From the NCBI RefSeq assembly GCF_000217815.1, contig NC_015707.1, positions 1,786,014 to 1,850,013 on the forward strand: 64,000 nt of DNA. Reading direction: 5' to 3'. Of this stretch, positions 4,430-11,269 are shown piece after piece (the stretch's first letter is position 1; each line of letters begins with the position of its first letter). The translations under genes were made by a program, and so were the position numbers. The notes below the pieces were generated by a model. That model had not been told where the DNA came from. It worked only from the letters and a program-made list of their open reading frames with translations, and did no database searches. Source of the stretch: Pseudothermotoga thermarum DSM 5069. GTDB lineage: Bacteria; Thermotogota; Thermotogae; Thermotogales; DSM-5069.

Positions 4430-5836
4430 GTGAAAGAAAGTTTTTCTGACAAGCTTTCTTTGAAGACCAAGATTTTCTTTGGTGCAGGTGACATTTATGG
4501 TGGAGGTGTTTTCAACATCGTTAACTTTTTCTACGCCATATTCCTAACCGACGTAGTTGGACTAGATCCAAGATGTGCCGCGCCGGTGTTTTTGATAGGA
4601 AAAATATGGGACGCTATAACTGATCCACTAATGGGAATGATAAGCGATCGAACAAAAAGCAAATGGGGTAGAAGAAGACCGTACTTTCTATTTGGGTTTC
4701 CATTTGTTTTTTTGTCATTTTTATTGCTTTGGATACCAGTCGGCTTTAGTTCAACAATTGGAAAATTTCTTTACGTTTTGACAACCTATCTGTTTTTAAA
4801 CACTGTCACCACAATGGTGATGGTACCCTATCAAGCTTTTGCCGGAGAAATAACTTTGGATTACCATGAGAGAACTTCTTTGAACACCATAAGACTTTTC
4901 TTCTCTTTAGCTTCTTCGCTCTTCTGTGCGGTTTTACCTATGATAATAGTTAACGCTGCACCAGATATAAAAAGAGGATATATCAACATGGCTTTGTTCT
5001 TTGGGGCGCTTTTTGCCATTCCTTGGATCGGCGTCTTTGCGTTTACGAAGGAGAGAGGATTTGAAAATGTACCAAAAAGGTTTGACATTAAATCTATGTT
5101 TTTGGAACCTCTCAAAGTAAGATCTTTTAGATTACTACTTTTGGTGTATTTGGGATCTTATCTTGCCATCGATGCTGTGTCGATAATCTTTGCGTATTTC
5201 ATGAGGTGGTACATAGGCAAACCGCAACTTTTGCCTTTGGTTCTTGGTACGTTGATACTAACTGAAATTGCCTTTCTCCCAGTTTATGCTGTAATTGCTC
5301 GAAAAACTAGCAAGAAAACAGCGTGGTTGCTTGGTTCACTCATTTGGACTGTTGCAAGTATTCTTATCTTCACACTTGCAAATCCTTCGATTCCTAATGC
5401 TATGCTAATTGCATTGGCTTTTGTGACGGGAGCTGGAGTATCAGCGGTTGCTGTTATGCCTCATGCGATGTTTGGCGATGTTGCAGATGTTGGTGAGCTC
5501 GCTTTTGGTGAAAGAAGAGAAGGTTCGTTCAGCGGTTTGATGACTTTCATCAGAAAAGTGGCATCAGCGGTAACGCAATCTTTGATACTTTACATTTTGG
5601 GTTTTGCTGGATACAATCCTCAGTTTGTCGCTCAACCTGATCGTGTCATTTTCGTCATAAGGTTTATACTTTGCTTTGTTCCTTTGATTTTGCTCGCATT
5701 TTCTGCAATTGCGGCTTGGAAATATCCTGTTAGTCCAACCATACATGCAGAGCTGAACAGGTATCTTGAAAGAAAAAGGATCTTTGGCGAGGTTAACGTA
5801 GAACTTGAGAGTAGGTTTAAGAAAGCTTTGGTGTGA
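4430..5836 (+). CDS. GPH-family sugar:cation symporter
   Basis: About 468 residues with twelve predicted membrane helices, belonging to the glycoside-pentoside-hexuronide:cation symporters of the major facilitator superfamily. Hallmarks are KIWDAITDPLMGMISDRTKS followed by KWGRRRPY in the first cytoplasmic loop and the YQAFAGEIT segment. An ATG at 4415 is in frame, but a GGGGGG ribosome binding site seven to eight bases before the GTG at 4430 favours the later start. It is divergent from the sugar ABC operon and probably imports a related glycoside or uronate. Its last 20 bases overlap the convergent DUF123 gene. Confidence 0.9.
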   Translation: MKESFSDKLSLKTKIFFGAGDIYGGGVFNIVNFFYAIFLTDVVGLDPRCAAPVFLIGKIWDAITDPLMGMISDRTKSKWGRRRPYFLFGFPFVFLSFLLLWIPVGFSSTIGKFLYVLTTYLFLNTVTTMVMVPYQAFAGEITLDYHERTSLNTIRLFFSLASSLFCAVLPMIIVNAAPDIKRGYINMALFFGALFAIPWIGVFAFTKERGFENVPKRFDIKSMFLEPLKVRSFRLLLLVYLGSYLAIDAVSIIFAYFMRWYIGKPQLLPLVLGTLILTEIAFLPVYAVIARKTSKKTAWLLGSLIWTVASILIFTLANPSIPNAMLIALAFVTGAGVSAVAVMPHAMFGDVADVGELAFGERREGSFSGLMTFIRKVASAVTQSLILYILGFAGYNPQFVAQPDRVIFVIRFILCFVPLILLAFSAIAAWKYPVSPTIHAELNRYLERKRIFGEVNVELESRFKKALV

Positions 5837-6236
5837 AAGAAATACTATAAAAAAGCTTTGAATCATCCATAACTTTTATCAACTCCTGTGCGCTTGAAAT
5901 TTTGAACAAATTTCCCTTGGTTTTGACATCAGTTGATCCAAAGTCTTTCACTGGCTCGAAGAATTTTTCAAGGTATCGAGCCACCTTTTCTTCTAACCTT
6001 TCGTTTGAAGGTATTTCTATGACCATGAGTACTTTTGCTTCTTTCAAAAGGTAATCCACGTGCCAATGCATCTTCTTGTTTTTTCGAAGGTGTCTTTCTA
6101 TACGCTTTTCAAGGTTGTTCATGGCAGATCCAACGTAAGCGTACAAACCTTTGGAAAGGTTCCAAGATTTCGCTTTTGATTTTATCGTTCGATCTTTTTC
6201 AAGTTTCACAACCAATATGTAAGTTCCCTTTGACAA
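5817..6236 (-). CDS. DUF123 (GIY-YIG-like) protein
   Basis: 139 residues matching the DUF123 family: GLYAYVGSA, LEKRIERHLR and KKMHWHVDYLL appear in the expected order. The family has a GIY-YIG-related fold and occurs alone or fused to endonuclease III in archaea; a nuclease role is suspected but not established. TTG at 6236 is used, with GGTGA seven bases upstream. The 3' end overlaps the end of the symporter gene by 20 bases on opposite strands. The start lies back to back with ddl in a very short shared promoter region. Confidence 0.85.
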   Translation of the reverse strand: MSKGTYILVVKLEKDRTIKSKAKSWNLSKGLYAYVGSAMNNLEKRIERHLRKNKKMHWHVDYLLKEAKVLMVIEIPSNERLEEKVARYLEKFFEPVKDFGSTDVKTKGNLFKISSAQELIKVMDDSKLFYSISFTPKLS

Positions 6237-6280
6237 GTTCTTTCACCATGTTGATAATATATTCTCTGAGGTGATTGAGT

Positions 6281-7174
6281 TTGAAAATAGCTGTTCTCAT
6301 GGGTGGTATTTCCAGGGAAAGACCCATATCACTCAAAAGCGGGGAAAATGTTGTCAAAGCTTTGAAGAAACTTGGCCATGAAGTTGCACCGATAGATGTC
6401 AACGGTGAGTTTTTAAACATAGCTCCAACTTTGAAGCAGTTTGATTTGGTTTTCAACGCTTTACATGGTCAATTTGGTGAGGATGGCACAGTTCAGGCAA
6501 TTTTGGATTGGCTTGGTGTTAAGTACACAGGATCAAAAGTCGTCGCCAGTGCAATTTGTTTTGACAAGGTCTTGACCTACAGGATGTTGACTGGTGTTGT
6601 TAGATATCCTGATTACATTCTCGTTGATAAACCGACCAAGGAATCTCCTTTTGGATTTCCATGTGTCATAAAACCACGTCGAGAAGGTTCAAGCATAGGA
6701 GTACACATCTGCGACGACCCTGATGAACTTTACAGAAACTTGCAGGAAGAACTCAGTGTTTACGGCGAGATGATTTTGCAAAGATATATAAAAGGTAGAG
6801 AGCTTACCGTTTCAATCTTAGAGATGAACAAAGAACTCAAAGTGCTACCAATATTGGAACTTCGACCAAAAAGGCGTTTTTACGACTACGTGGCTAAGTA
6901 CACACCGAACATGACAGAGTTTGTGCTTCCTGCACCTTTGAGCGAAGAAGAATTCAAAGAGGTTTCAGAATCAGCGATAAAAGCTTTCAAGACATGTCAG
7001 TGTGAAGGATTTGGAAGAGTCGATGGTATTTTGAGCGAAGGAAAGTTTTACGTTCTTGAGATAAACACGATACCGGGTTTGACCGATTTGAGCGATCTTC
7101 CAGCCAGCGCAAGGGCAGCTGGAATGAGCTTTGAGGAACTTATCGATGCGATAATCAAGACGGTGGTTTCATGA
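6281..7174 (+). CDS. ddl: D-alanine--D-alanine ligase
   Basis: Joins two D-alanines using ATP for the peptidoglycan precursor. The 297-residue ATP-grasp protein shows MKIAVLMGGISRERPISLKSG at the N terminus, the CVIKPRREGSSIGV loop near residue 130 and the metal-binding EINTIPGLT motif near residue 270. TTG at 6275 overlaps the ribosome binding site GAGGTG, so TTG at 6281 is chosen and also fits family alignments. The stop overlaps the ATG of the next gene (ATGA), so the two are translationally coupled. It is short for the family (about 300-360), as in other Thermotogales. Confidence 0.93.
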   Translation: MKIAVLMGGISRERPISLKSGENVVKALKKLGHEVAPIDVNGEFLNIAPTLKQFDLVFNALHGQFGEDGTVQAILDWLGVKYTGSKVVASAICFDKVLTYRMLTGVVRYPDYILVDKPTKESPFGFPCVIKPRREGSSIGVHICDDPDELYRNLQEELSVYGEMILQRYIKGRELTVSILEMNKELKVLPILELRPKRRFYDYVAKYTPNMTEFVLPAPLSEEEFKEVSESAIKAFKTCQCEGFGRVDGILSEGKFYVLEINTIPGLTDLSDLPASARAAGMSFEELIDAIIKTVVS

Positions 7175-8205
7175 TAGCCAGGTTAAAGGTTCAACAGCTT
7201 GAAAGATGGCTCAGGTTTAGCGACAGGGTAATGGGTTCGTCCGAGTACACGATGGGAAATGTGTACTTCTCCTACAAAGACGGATTGATTCTCAGATCAA
7301 CGGACGGTTGTCTCACCAGTTGGGTTAAAGTTGCCGACTGTCAGCCTTTTCACGGTGAAATAGCAATTTCCACGAGGTTGTTGAGAGGTTTTTTGATGGG
7401 TGAAAGTTCTCAAGAATTGGAACTAGAACTTTTTCAAGATTATTTGATCATCAAGTCGCAGCATGAGGTTTTGCGAGTGAAAATAGCTACTCCAAAGCAG
7501 CGAGAAGCAATGCAACCCTTTGAAGAAGTTGGTGAAACAACCACCAAGCAGATTTTGAAAGCTTTTGACTTTGCCACCGCAAGCCTTGAAGAAGGAGATA
7601 TGATGAAAATAGGTTCTTTGAGAAACCAAATATTTTTGGTTGGATCAACTCCCACTGTTTTGAATCTTTGCCAGCTTGAAGCCAACTTGTTGAAGGATTT
7701 TTGTTTCGCCATGCCTTATGCCAGTACCCGTAGGATAGTTAAGTCGCTGGATGTTTATAGCTTGGATGAAAAGACTATTTTGGGAATTTCACAGGAGAAG
7801 TTCACCATATTGACAAAGGAATTTGGAATGCAAGTTTGCGGTGAAATGGATAAAATCGATCCTCGCTTGGAGGAGCTTGCGTTTGTAAAAGGAGAGGAAG
7901 TACTTCCAAGTGGTTTTCAAAAATTTGTATCCAAAGCTGCCGTGATTTTGCCGAAAGATGCCACATTGAAAATAACAAAAACCAAGAAGGAAATAAGGTT
8001 TTTTGCAAGTTATGGGACCATCCAGTATAGAGGGTTTGTTCCGTGTTCAGAAGGTTTAGAATTTGAAACTGAGGTTTCTGCACACAAATTAAGATCTGCT
8101 TTGTCCAGGATGTCAAGTAGACTTTTTGTCCACGTTCAGGACGGATATGTGAAAATTTCCGATAGTTCAAATAGATCGGTCATTCTTAAGTCTTCAGAAG
8201 GCTGA
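7171..8205 (+). CDS. divergent beta-sliding-clamp-like protein
   Basis: 344 residues with no catalytic motif. Read against DnaN, the layout resembles a three-domain clamp: a hairpin FSYKDGLILRSTDG like the clamp's VKDG..ICATD, then GEIAISTRLLRGFL, then LEL-x5-LIIKS, then VLRVKIATPKQREAMQPFEE at the end of domain 1. Domains 2 and 3 show the same strand-helix-strand pattern. It lacks the C-terminal M-P-x-R-L strand of replicative clamps and ends SNRSVILKSSEG. So it is probably a degenerate paralogue, perhaps unable to close the usual ring or bind partners normally. It is coupled to ddl by an ATGA overlap, which says nothing clear about function. The assignment rests on recalled family features. 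Confidence 0.5.
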   Translation: MIARLKVQQLERWLRFSDRVMGSSEYTMGNVYFSYKDGLILRSTDGCLTSWVKVADCQPFHGEIAISTRLLRGFLMGESSQELELELFQDYLIIKSQHEVLRVKIATPKQREAMQPFEEVGETTTKQILKAFDFATASLEEGDMMKIGSLRNQIFLVGSTPTVLNLCQLEANLLKDFCFAMPYASTRRIVKSLDVYSLDEKTILGISQEKFTILTKEFGMQVCGEMDKIDPRLEELAFVKGEEVLPSGFQKFVSKAAVILPKDATLKITKTKKEIRFFASYGTIQYRGFVPCSEGLEFETEVSAHKLRSALSRMSSRLFVHVQDGYVKISDSSNRSVILKSSEG

Positions 8206-8980
8206 TCACACAGTCGTAGGCTTTCAAAATTTTCGAACACATTTGACTGCATTTGGCTTCCAGATCCAAACCTTCCAGAAGTTGGTTGTAATCAACCGTG
8301 AAAATCGTTAGAATTGGAGAATTTCCAAACCTTTTCACGTTTCCTTGATAAGCTTGACCGTACATCGGTCGGTAAACTCTTGCTATTTCAGCCAGCAAAG
8401 AAGCGTGGTCCAAAGGAGCACTTTTTGGAATTGTAATCACGCACGTGGCAAAGTCATCGAAAAGATGGATTTGGGCGAAATCGACCTTTTTTCCATTCCA
8501 ACGTCGAAATTTTTCGTACAATTCTTCGTTGATTTTGCTGGCAAAGGTGAAAAAAGAAAGAGAGTGGATCTTTTCCTTGAAGATTTCTTTTTCCAAAAAT
8601 TCATCTTCTCCGACAACGGCAATTGCTTTGCTTTGAAAAGGTAGTTTGATCACGGCACTTTTTTGAAACTGAGGCTGTTGGTCGAAAAGTTTTGAAAATA
8701 TTTCAGAAAGCAGGAAATCAACGTTTGATGTGCTGTACAAAGAAAGGTTTTTCTCAAAAGGATTCGACAAAGAGATTCCTAAAATTTTTCTACCGTAGAT
8801 GTCAATCAACGAAAAGACGGAAAAATGATTCTCTTTCCAAACAGCTGAAAGTACGGCATGCCTGTGAAATTGATCCAATCTTTCTTTGTGCTTTTGAAAC
8901 ATTTCAAAGGGTTGCGAAGTTTCAATTCTTTCTAAGTATGAAGCCAAAATTTGTGTTACACTTTCAGGACCAAGTTTGAT
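8186..8980 (-). CDS. unknown protein of the MoxR/VWA operon
   Basis: About 265 residues, not recognised. It is soluble-looking, without signal peptide or membrane helices, has an amphipathic N-terminal helix rich in Glu/Gln/His, then alternating strands (HFSVFSLIDIYGRKILGISL) and a C-terminal ATCVITIPKSAPLDHASLL segment. The GTG start lies at 8983-8981, overlapping the stop of the VWA gene as GTGA, so it is the third gene of the operon and probably acts with that pair. Its 3' end overlaps the clamp-like gene by 20 bases, convergently. No function is proposed. Confidence 0.6.
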   Translation of the reverse strand: MKLGPESVTQILASYLERIETSQPFEMFQKHKERLDQFHRHAVLSAVWKENHFSVFSLIDIYGRKILGISLSNPFEKNLSLYSTSNVDFLLSEIFSKLFDQQPQFQKSAVIKLPFQSKAIAVVGEDEFLEKEIFKEKIHSLSFFTFASKINEELYEKFRRWNGKKVDFAQIHLFDDFATCVITIPKSAPLDHASLLAEIARVYRPMYGQAYQGNVKRFGNSPILTIFTVDYNQLLEGLDLEAKCSQMCSKILKAYDCVISLLKT

Positions 8981-10152
8981 CACTTGAGAATCACCACGCT
9001 CGATCGTCCATAAACTTTGCGCGCCTGTTCTGCGAATTCTTCGTTGTAATAACTTGATAAAACAAAAAGAACCCTTCTTTTCACAACAGGAAGATCGGTG
9101 AACCCGTCTGTGAAGATAATCAAACCTTCTGGGTGGTACTTTTCTTGAAGGTAATCAACGGCTGGTTGAAGATCTGTTTCGCCTCCACCGATTATTTCCA
9201 TCTTTCTCCAAGCTCCTTTTGTATACCTCATCTCAAGGTTAACGGCTCTATCTACCTGAACCAGTACCAAGTTTGTGTCCACGTACTTTGAAAGACTTTC
9301 TATTTCGGAAAAGAACTGATCGAGTTCTTCGTCTATTATGCTCCCGCTTGTATCGACGATTATCGCAAGTTTTGCCATGTGCGATATCTTCCAGCCAGGT
9401 TGATTTTCATACCTTCTGTTGGGTTTAAGTGGTGTTGTGTGTCTTTCACCGTATTCCGAAAGCCCTGCAAATCTTCTGATCATATCCTTCCAATTGAGAA
9501 CTGGTCTGAAAATGGCAAGTTCAACTTGTCTTTTGATTCCACTTGGCAGCTTTTCACCGTAAAGGTTGAAAGCTTTCGCAAGATCGCTTTGTGTGAGCTC
9601 CAAAACCATATCGATGTTTTGAATTTTTTGAAGTGAATCGTGGCTGTCCGTTGACTTTTCACGAAGCTGTGCAACCAGAGTTACATCGAATCTTCCAAGT
9701 TCTTCCATTTTCTTCATTATCCATTTGTAGTATTCTTCGGCGCTCTCATCGGGCATCCAATCGGGTGGCAGAACGAACAGCCTTTCGTTATCGACACCGT
9801 GTCCTTCTTCAATCAGAAGGTTCAAAGGTATACCAAAGGCTGCAAGTTCTGGTATGTACTGGTTGATAGCCGCATCCATCGCAAGATCCCAGATCATTTT
9901 TTCCCTTTTGTTTTTGGGCTTTATCAAAAAATGAAGGTTTATAAGGTGCATCAAATGGTGCAAAATCAAAGCCTGTACAAAATTAACGTCAGTTTTTTCA
10001 ACCCATTCTGGGTTGTAAAGCAAGGTCCAACGATTTTGGGAAAAACTCAGTTCGATCGTTCTAACTTCGGTACTTGGTACTTTTGAAATGTTGAGCAGGA
10101 TGTAAAGGTAAAAGGGTGATCTTTTCCCAAGTAATAAAATGGCCTTCTCTAT
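8980..10152 (-). CDS. DUF2201-type protein: metallopeptidase-like domain plus VWA domain
   Basis: The C-terminal half is a von Willebrand A domain with an intact MIDAS: VDTSGSI, the Thr of GGGETDL and FTDGFTD. The N-terminal half matches the DUF2201 peptidase-like domain, but the usual HExxH reads HHLMH, so the catalytic Glu is missing. The first TTG is at 10023, yet the frame stays open and homologous-looking upstream (IEKAILLLGKRSPFYLYILL), reaching ATA at 10152, nine bases after GGAGG. No ATG, GTG or TTG exists in that stretch. The true start is therefore probably AUA, or the sequence has an error. Partner of the MoxR ATPase just upstream. Confidence 0.75.
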   Translation of the reverse strand: MEKAILLLGKRSPFYLYILLNISKVPSTEVRTIELSFSQNRWTLLYNPEWVEKTDVNFVQALILHHLMHLINLHFLIKPKNKREKMIWDLAMDAAINQYIPELAAFGIPLNLLIEEGHGVDNERLFVLPPDWMPDESAEEYYKWIMKKMEELGRFDVTLVAQLREKSTDSHDSLQKIQNIDMVLELTQSDLAKAFNLYGEKLPSGIKRQVELAIFRPVLNWKDMIRRFAGLSEYGERHTTPLKPNRRYENQPGWKISHMAKLAIIVDTSGSIIDEELDQFFSEIESLSKYVDTNLVLVQVDRAVNLEMRYTKGAWRKMEIIGGGETDLQPAVDYLQEKYHPEGLIIFTDGFTDLPVVKRRVLFVLSSYYNEEFAEQARKVYGRSSVVILK

Positions 10153-10153
10153 G

Positions 10154-11218
10154 TTACATCTCCTCCAAAATGGATTTTATTTGACCAAAGGTGGCAAGTT
10201 TTTCGACAAGTGCATCGAAGAATTCAGAGTATTTTTCACCGTTCGTTGATCTATCCACGATGTACCTTAAAAGTGCGTAAAAAGAGTCTTTTGGAAGAAC
10301 GCTGGCAAGATCACAGATGTTTTTTGCCACGGTTGAAAGATGAGCCTTCAAAAGTTCAACTGTTTCATCGTCCATCTTCGAGAAATAGTCGATCAACCTC
10401 AAAGTTAGAGAGTTTGCCTCGTCAATGTTTTGTTTCAAAGCCTGCGATAATCCTTCGATCAAAACTTTCTGTGGTGTTGGAACGGTTTTTTCACCTGAAA
10501 ACTCCACAAAAGCCCTTGCTGCTTCTGGTCCTAAAATTCCAGCGGCAAGTGTATATCCATATTTCTTTTTCTCTTCATCGGTTAAGAGTTTCATAACATT
10601 GCTCAGTTTGTGCCAACTTCTTGGGCTTGGTCTAAGTTCTATCTTCAAAGACATCGAAGAGTGGGTATACAAAAATTCTGGAAATTGCTCTATGAAATCA
10701 CAAATCTCTTGAATTACGTTGTTTTCTTTTGCCCAAACTTTCCATTCTTCAGGGGATGGAGTAACATCCAGTATGAAAAACCTTGATATGAAGGCTGGGT
10801 CGGTTATCAGCTCGGCTTGGTCGTATTCGTCATCGGGGGGATTCATGGTTGCCATTATCCAAGTTCCTTCTGGTAAAACGTGGTTGTGAATTCTTTTGTC
10901 TATGACAAGCTGCATTATCGCATTTCTTATCGATCTGTGTGCTCTGTTTATTTCATCAAGCAAAATTATCGTTTTACCGTCCTCAGGCCACCAATCGGGT
11001 TTGAGAAAGACCGTTTTCTCATCTTGCCTTGAAGGAAGTCCTATTAAATCACCTGGTTCCATTTGTGACAATATCAAGATCACCAACTTTCTACCGGTTT
11101 CTGCAGCTATTTGTCTTGCTATATCAGTTTTCCCAACCCCAAAGTGTCCAACCAAAAGGGGAACTTCCCCTGCTTCCATGATCTTTTTGCTTAAAAATTT
11201 TGCTTCGTTAACTGTCAA
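10154..11218 (-). CDS. MoxR-type AAA+ ATPase
   Basis: 354 residues. Visible elements are the P loop GHFGVGKTD, Walker B ILLDEINR, the sensor region IMATMNPP and the arginine-finger segment DPAFISRF. MoxR ATPases remodel or mature protein complexes together with a VWA-domain partner, which is the next gene. An in-frame TTG at 11245 falls inside the -10 box, so TTG at 11218, eight bases after GGAGG, is taken as the start. The operon is MoxR, VWA, then an unknown protein; the substrate complex is not evident. Confidence 0.88.
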   Translation of the reverse strand: MTVNEAKFLSKKIMEAGEVPLLVGHFGVGKTDIARQIAAETGRKLVILILSQMEPGDLIGLPSRQDEKTVFLKPDWWPEDGKTIILLDEINRAHRSIRNAIMQLVIDKRIHNHVLPEGTWIMATMNPPDDEYDQAELITDPAFISRFFILDVTPSPEEWKVWAKENNVIQEICDFIEQFPEFLYTHSSMSLKIELRPSPRSWHKLSNVMKLLTDEEKKKYGYTLAAGILGPEAARAFVEFSGEKTVPTPQKVLIEGLSQALKQNIDEANSLTLRLIDYFSKMDDETVELLKAHLSTVAKNICDLASVLPKDSFYALLRYIVDRSTNGEKYSEFFDALVEKLATFGQIKSILEEM

Positions 11219-11236
11219 ACCGATCGCCTCCGAAAA

Positions 11237-11269
11237 ATTATACAACGTGTGAAGAAGATTGTGTATAAT
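11237..11269. promoter_or_regulatory. divergent -10 boxes for the MoxR operon and rlmN
   Basis: TATAAT occurs on the minus strand at 11242-11237 (MoxR operon) and on the plus strand at 11264-11269 (rlmN). The two elements face away within 33 bases, so the promoters share upstream DNA and RNA polymerase binding may be mutually exclusive. Good -35 boxes are not obvious. Confidence 0.5.

Follow-up and report, generated by a model that had tools for sequence, protein, structure and literature searches.

Sliding clamps, the rings that keep DNA polymerase on DNA, are regarded as one of the best-conserved components of the bacterial replisome, with a single partner pocket. The locus described here raises the question of whether Pseudothermotoga thermarum DSM 5069 encodes, besides its DnaN, a second clamp of a very different kind, and what such a protein might do. 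The gene lies in a stretch of 64,000 nucleotides from contig NC_015707.1 (the window), where an open reading frame on the plus strand at 7171-8205, running from an ATG at 7171 to a TGA at 8203-8205, encodes 344 residues. An initial annotation of this DNA, which placed the frame correctly, had taken the product for a degenerate clamp paralogue coupled to ddl, unusual in Thermotogales, with a role of its own in repair, replication control or phage defence.

The stop codon of ddl and the start codon of the clamp paralogue share the ATGA at 7171-7174, giving a 4-bp overlap (Table 1). A gene for a small DUF123/GIY-YIG-like protein (5817-6236, minus strand, Pfam 2.3e-23) is divergent from ddl, and a gene for a DUF4895 protein (8186-8983, minus strand, Pfam 1.8e-99) is convergent with the clamp gene, overlapping its 3' end by 20 bases. 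After the DUF4895 gene, positions 8980-11245 hold genes resembling those for a VWA/metallopeptidase-like protein and a MoxR-like ATPase.

Table 1. Features of the clamp-paralogue gene and its upstream neighbour, in window coordinates.
Feature	Position	Strand	Evidence or conservation
ddl (D-Ala-D-Ala ligase), upstream of the clamp paralogue	6275..7174	+	Pfam 1.7e-48; NCBIfam PRK14571 8e-150
Clamp-paralogue CDS, 344 aa	7171..8205	+	AlphaFold2 pLDDT 94.5, pTM 0.91; Foldseek PDB best 1.3e-19
Clamp domain I, residues 1-112	7171..7506	+	hhalign vs DnaN domain I, probability 96.3%, score 53.2
G22-E25, shortened counterpart of E. coli DNA loop I (R24)	7234..7245	+	G22 100%, E25 95% (D 4%)
D45-G46-C47 motif, domain I	7303..7311	+	D 96%, G 90%, C 90%
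Clamp domain II, residues 113-226	7507..7848	+	hhalign vs DnaN domain II, probability 87.4%, score 36.0
D133..E141-G142 (DFxSxxxEEG), shortened counterpart of E. coli DNA loop II	7567..7596	+	4-residue deletion vs DnaN 151-154
P182-K191 (PYxSxRHxxK), pore helix 2 of domain II	7714..7743	+	R187 100%, K191 100%, P182 96%, H/R188
C223-G224-E225, last strand of domain II	7837..7845	+	C223 94%
Clamp domain III, residues 240-344	7888..8202	+	hhalign vs DnaN domain III, probability 95.0%, score 43.6
C-terminal strand, residues 335-341, counterpart of the MPxRL strand, motif lost	8173..8193	+	structure model and alignment

Fold and homology

As a single sequence the window protein gave no match in Pfam, NCBIfam or PDB (phmmer), and the curated models of Pfam and NCBIfam all miss it; hence all evidence for homology comes from profiles and from a structure model. 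The AlphaFold2 model shows six helices and three domains in clamp topology, in agreement with the strand order of the three DnaN domains that had been noted earlier. When this model was compared with the PDB using Foldseek, the top matches were all bacterial beta clamps, the best at around 13% identity, with TM-scores (by query length) of 0.82 against E. coli beta and 0.77 against T. maritima DnaN (1vpk, 14% identity). A divergent orthologue of 323 residues, around 20% identical to the window protein, was modelled with a pLDDT of 94.2 and also gave beta clamps as its top PDB matches. The C-terminal strand, reported as missing in the initial annotation, is present in the model and exists in every family member examined; what has gone are the letters of its MPxRL motif, and several lineages end in [IL]LPL[LI].

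Orthologues were gathered by whole-genome search and 32 of them were aligned for a family profile, whose significant matches in the PDB were all beta clamps (best 8dt6, 4.3e-5). Searched against a DnaN-rich pool of 637 open reading frames from the loci retrieved, the family HMM recovered only DnaN besides the family itself (best E 1.8e-14). An hhalign comparison of 70 family members with 31 DnaN sequences extended over the full length (339 columns) with a probability of 98.5% and an E-value of 1.6e-15, and domains I, II and III of the paralogue each paired best with the same-numbered domain of DnaN. A circular permutation, suggested by a domain I ATDG motif like that of DnaN domain II, was rejected because every domain best matches its own counterpart.

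Existing models reach individual family members. PF00712 weakly matches 9 of the 32 (best 1.1e-5), and phrog_947 (DNA polymerase processivity factor) aligns with the T. maritima orthologue from end to end (E 3.1e-6). The model for canonical DnaN, TIGR00663, does not match the window protein, and just one of the 32 orthologues gives a match, at no better than E 9.8e-6. These data firmly identify the window protein as a true three-domain beta-clamp homologue, with its fold and DnaN ancestry settled as far as computation allows. The paralogue lies inside the beta-clamp superfamily, yet it fails the tests for canonical DnaN.

Distribution and inheritance

A separate, canonical dnaN was found in the window genome at C1:849104-850189 (E 1.9e-84), and in 58 of 61 relatives. 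With fold, homology and this separate dnaN in agreement, the reading of the gene as a clamp paralogue proved correct. Far from being unusual in Thermotogales, however, it is a phylum-wide core gene, present in 98 of 103 Thermotogota genomes and nearly always in single copy; the second weak matches in some of these genomes are their DnaN. The search covered 390 genomes in all, and none of the roughly 287 from other phyla carried the paralogue, the weak matches in six of them (1e-5 to 1e-7) each being that genome's own DnaN. A search of genome contigs with the window protein alone found no related loci, and with a narrow alignment it found loci in Thermotogota only, three of the four matches being named Thermosipho. 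The family is thus confined to Thermotogota at the search sensitivity used.

In five genomes (G009, both g13 genomes, G033 and G035, and both g18 genomes, G048 and G054) a second profile found no paralogue at E up to 10, and DnaN alone came up. All five are drafts, and loss of the paralogue from them is possible. The g13 and g18 genomes represent two small genera that have kept DnaN and PolC, and would be useful for comparison if these are natural losses; their seeming lack of the paralogue is a point against the explanation favoured below.

A maximum-likelihood tree built from 52 members places each family with more than one row in a group of its own, with the exception of f2, which falls into two groups and is compatible with a single origin. 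On the strength of this tree the paralogue is inherited vertically. Its dN/dS in the two closest pairs within Thermotoga was 0.048 and 0.039, and it evolves faster than DnaN (the window genome and T. maritima share 27% identity in the paralogue and 51% in DnaN). Genome G021 was taken as T. maritima as its DnaN matches 1vpk by identity and its Hsp33 matches 1vq0; the orthologue there is presumably TM1395. The low omega of the close pairs (0.04-0.05) points to clear purifying selection, and the term degenerate does not fit a gene so constrained and near-universal in its phylum.

Extra copies were seen in a few genomes. In G004 (L065:6053-7598) the clamp paralogue is followed by a tandem partial second copy (residues ~166-345) and the C terminus of the first copy is altered, an arrangement that is a local partial duplication. 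G039 (L035, L171) has a second, divergent full-length DnaN, G060 (L172) a second DnaN-like copy with two stop codons, and G058 (L173) a DnaN-like relative below the cut-off within a 502-aa frame; these extra DnaN-like genes are possibly mobile or phage copies.

Phage clamps of similar fold exist (BFVD best 5.8e-20), which could suggest a clamp derived from a phage or plasmid, or a defence or counter-defence protein. The BFVD matches, however, reflect the clamp fold alone; no PADLOC defence model matches the window protein, and tblastn against phage records found no recognisable relative encoded there. Together with the near-universal presence of the gene in single copy and its vertical inheritance, this largely refutes a phage origin or the defence role first entertained, either of which we now find scarcely credible.

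Conserved residues and partner pockets

Published work describes the partner-pocket residues of DnaN, with H175 and M362 in a bridging role (PMC11139829). We measured conservation over the canonical pocket between domains II and III (TDGHR, P242/R246/V247, N320/Y323 and MPxR). Read in the register of the alignment, these positions scored 0.306 in the paralogue family against a background of 0.361, whereas a comparable test of DnaN gave 0.737 against 0.566. The suspicion that the partner-binding residues are unconserved was thus well founded.

This bears on whether the paralogue is a redundant second replicative clamp. A partly redundant second dnaN is documented in Bacillus anthracis, and Bacillus DnaN-2 is around 40% alike to DnaN-1 and able to take part in replication (PMC3290774). 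The overall fold shared with DnaN is in keeping with such a role, but identity to DnaN is only ~13-15% rather than ~40%, and with the clamp-binding-motif pocket unconserved ordinary QLxLF partners should not bind. Redundancy of the Bacillus type is therefore very unlikely.

Conservation in the family is instead concentrated in domains I and II, which contain 17 of the 20 most conserved positions, mainly charged or catalytic-type residues. The top-conserved set comprises G22, E25, D45-G46-C47, S67, I128, D133, T136, E141, P182, Y183, S185, R187, R/H188, K191 and C223. The pseudo-equivalents of the pocket at the domain I/II junction score 0.562, a value that random sets reach with a frequency of 0.0003 (10 of 18 positions mapped, in a test that treats positions as independent). 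In a domain-shifted hhalign, D45-G46-C47 is the pseudo-equivalent of TDGHR in DnaN domain II, with H175 falling on C47. C47 and C223 are likely the equivalents of H175 and M362, C223 having been matched to M362 by eye. The argument for a partner pocket at this junction is built on the pseudo-symmetry of the clamp domains, one of the points that weigh against the explanation favoured below.

The near-invariant polar residues (E25, D45, C47, D133, E141, Y183, R187, H188, K191 and C223) might alternatively mark a ligand, metal, redox or catalytic site on a repurposed clamp fold that does not tether anything. Their concentration in domains I and II would suit this, as would the joint loss of C47 and C223 in three f8 genomes. 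However, two f4 genomes that lose C47 still have C223, and the same residues also fit a partner pocket together with a DNA-facing helix. We know of no enzyme built on a beta-clamp scaffold, and regard repurposing of this kind as improbable.

Pore, DNA loops and subunit interface

DNA loops I and II and the pore residues of DnaN are known from earlier work (PMC5042465). Loop I of the paralogue is two residues shorter than that of DnaN, with R24 falling in an alignment gap, and loop II (Q149-Y154 in DnaN) is four residues shorter, with 151-154 in gaps. In E. coli, shortened loops and the loss of R24 would weaken loading, which counts against the DNA-bound role that we favour below. The six pore helices have a summed charge of around +7.9 per subunit, compared with around +0.5 in DnaN, and the net charge of the whole protein is +5.6, compared with -18.7. 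Conserved basic residues in the pore are R187 and K191 (both 100%), K255 and R313. The initial annotation had considered the DNA-facing residues unconserved; in fact they include invariant positions, on pore helices with a stronger basic character than in DnaN. At the subunit interface positions 74 and 101 stay hydrophobic but the salt bridges that join the DnaN subunits are lost, so that a closed ring remains a proposal, another point against the favoured explanation.

The strongest rival to that explanation is a regulatory clamp, forming a heterodimer with DnaN or competing with it, which would not encircle DNA alone and would control PolC, initiation or clamp unloading. The opposite net charges of the two proteins, the retention of interface hydrophobics with loss of the salt bridges, and a gene that adjoins polC in two families (see below) are all consistent with it. 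The strongly conserved basic pore helices nevertheless suggest that the paralogue makes its own contact with DNA, and on balance we consider a purely regulatory clamp unlikely.

Gene neighbourhood

Coupling to ddl holds in the window's own family, where the order is topA-ddl-clamp or ddl-clamp, but not beyond it, as ddl lies upstream of the paralogue in this family only. In T. maritima the paralogue lies behind alaS and faces hsp33, in part of family f3 it lies behind tsaD, and in family f5 behind ychF and a small protein gene. A function read from the operon via ddl was rejected, since the neighbouring gene differs between families.

In families f9 and f11 the paralogue is found directly behind polC, the gene of the main replication polymerase, with gaps of -8 to +14 bp in 15 gene maps, most of which have ruvC before polC and hence the order ruvC-polC-clamp. 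By coordinates, it lies within around 20 bp behind polC in 16 of 17 f11 genomes and 14 of 21 f9 genomes (30/38). No family besides these two has the paralogue immediately behind polC, and the Thermotogales, window included, are without the linkage, which weighs against the explanation favoured below. The f9 and f11 sequences are strongly different, implying that the polC-clamp order has long been maintained. This linkage is the best functional clue, short of proof.

PolC itself is present in 102 of 103 Thermotogota genomes, and every PolC examined retains a C-terminal QxxLF motif. As this tail fits canonical DnaN, an accessory role for the paralogue is probable. Many f9 genomes also encode a shorter PolC paralogue of ~970-1025 aa, mostly matching profile positions 376-1176; G060:C1:1829520-1831880 and G096:C1:1984984-1987356 are examples of the shorter PolC-like reading frame.

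Discussion

Our analysis suggests that the paralogue is probably an ancient, Thermotogota-specific second DNA-bound clamp that serves replication-linked genome maintenance through a different partner site. Its homology is firm, whereas its function is what we infer. On its own or jointly with DnaN, the protein would sit on DNA as a ring or half-ring of clamp type, held through its basic pore helices, and would tether a partner for replication or fork repair linked to PolC. This partner may dock where domains I and II meet, a site corresponding by pseudo-symmetry to the DnaN II/III pocket, rather than at the usual QLxLF pocket. The second clamp would be accessory, not replicative, and could be loaded by the standard loader. 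Among the roles first listed, replication or repair is the better reading and phage defence is unsupported. A bolder version, which we put forward tentatively as possible rather than expected, is a two-clamp replisome throughout the phylum, in which the second ring has its partner site moved from II/III to I/II, with H175/M362 giving way to co-varying C47/C223, and acts at high temperature in replication or repair tied to PolC.

The paralogue resembles canonical DnaN (TIGR00663; PF00712, PF02767 and PF02768; 1vpk) in three-domain topology, colinear full-length homology, basic pore helices and a TM-score of 0.77-0.82 by query length. It differs in its 13-15% identity, its unconserved TDGHR/MPxRL pocket with a conserved site in domains I/II, its shortened loops I and II and lost R24, its positive net charge and the missing dimer salt bridges. 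Like Bacillus DnaN-2 it is a second clamp beside the canonical dnaN of one genome, but it is far more divergent and is phylum-wide. With the phage beta clamps (phrog_947) it shares its fold and, in the T. maritima orthologue, a full-length match, but it is chromosomal, single-copy and, by its tree, vertically inherited. We found no description of a Thermotogota clamp paralogue in the open-access literature; second clamps are known already, and none was found that is both phylum-wide and so divergent.

If our reading is true, the Thermotogota, a deep-branching phylum that serves as a model group and includes T. maritima, have a second, unannotated core clamp and the description of their replication machinery is incomplete. 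The paralogue would also offer a natural case in which the canonical pocket has been lost and another site is tightly conserved, making pocket relocation on the clamp scaffold directly testable, and it can be named as a specific candidate for an accessory factor of PolC.
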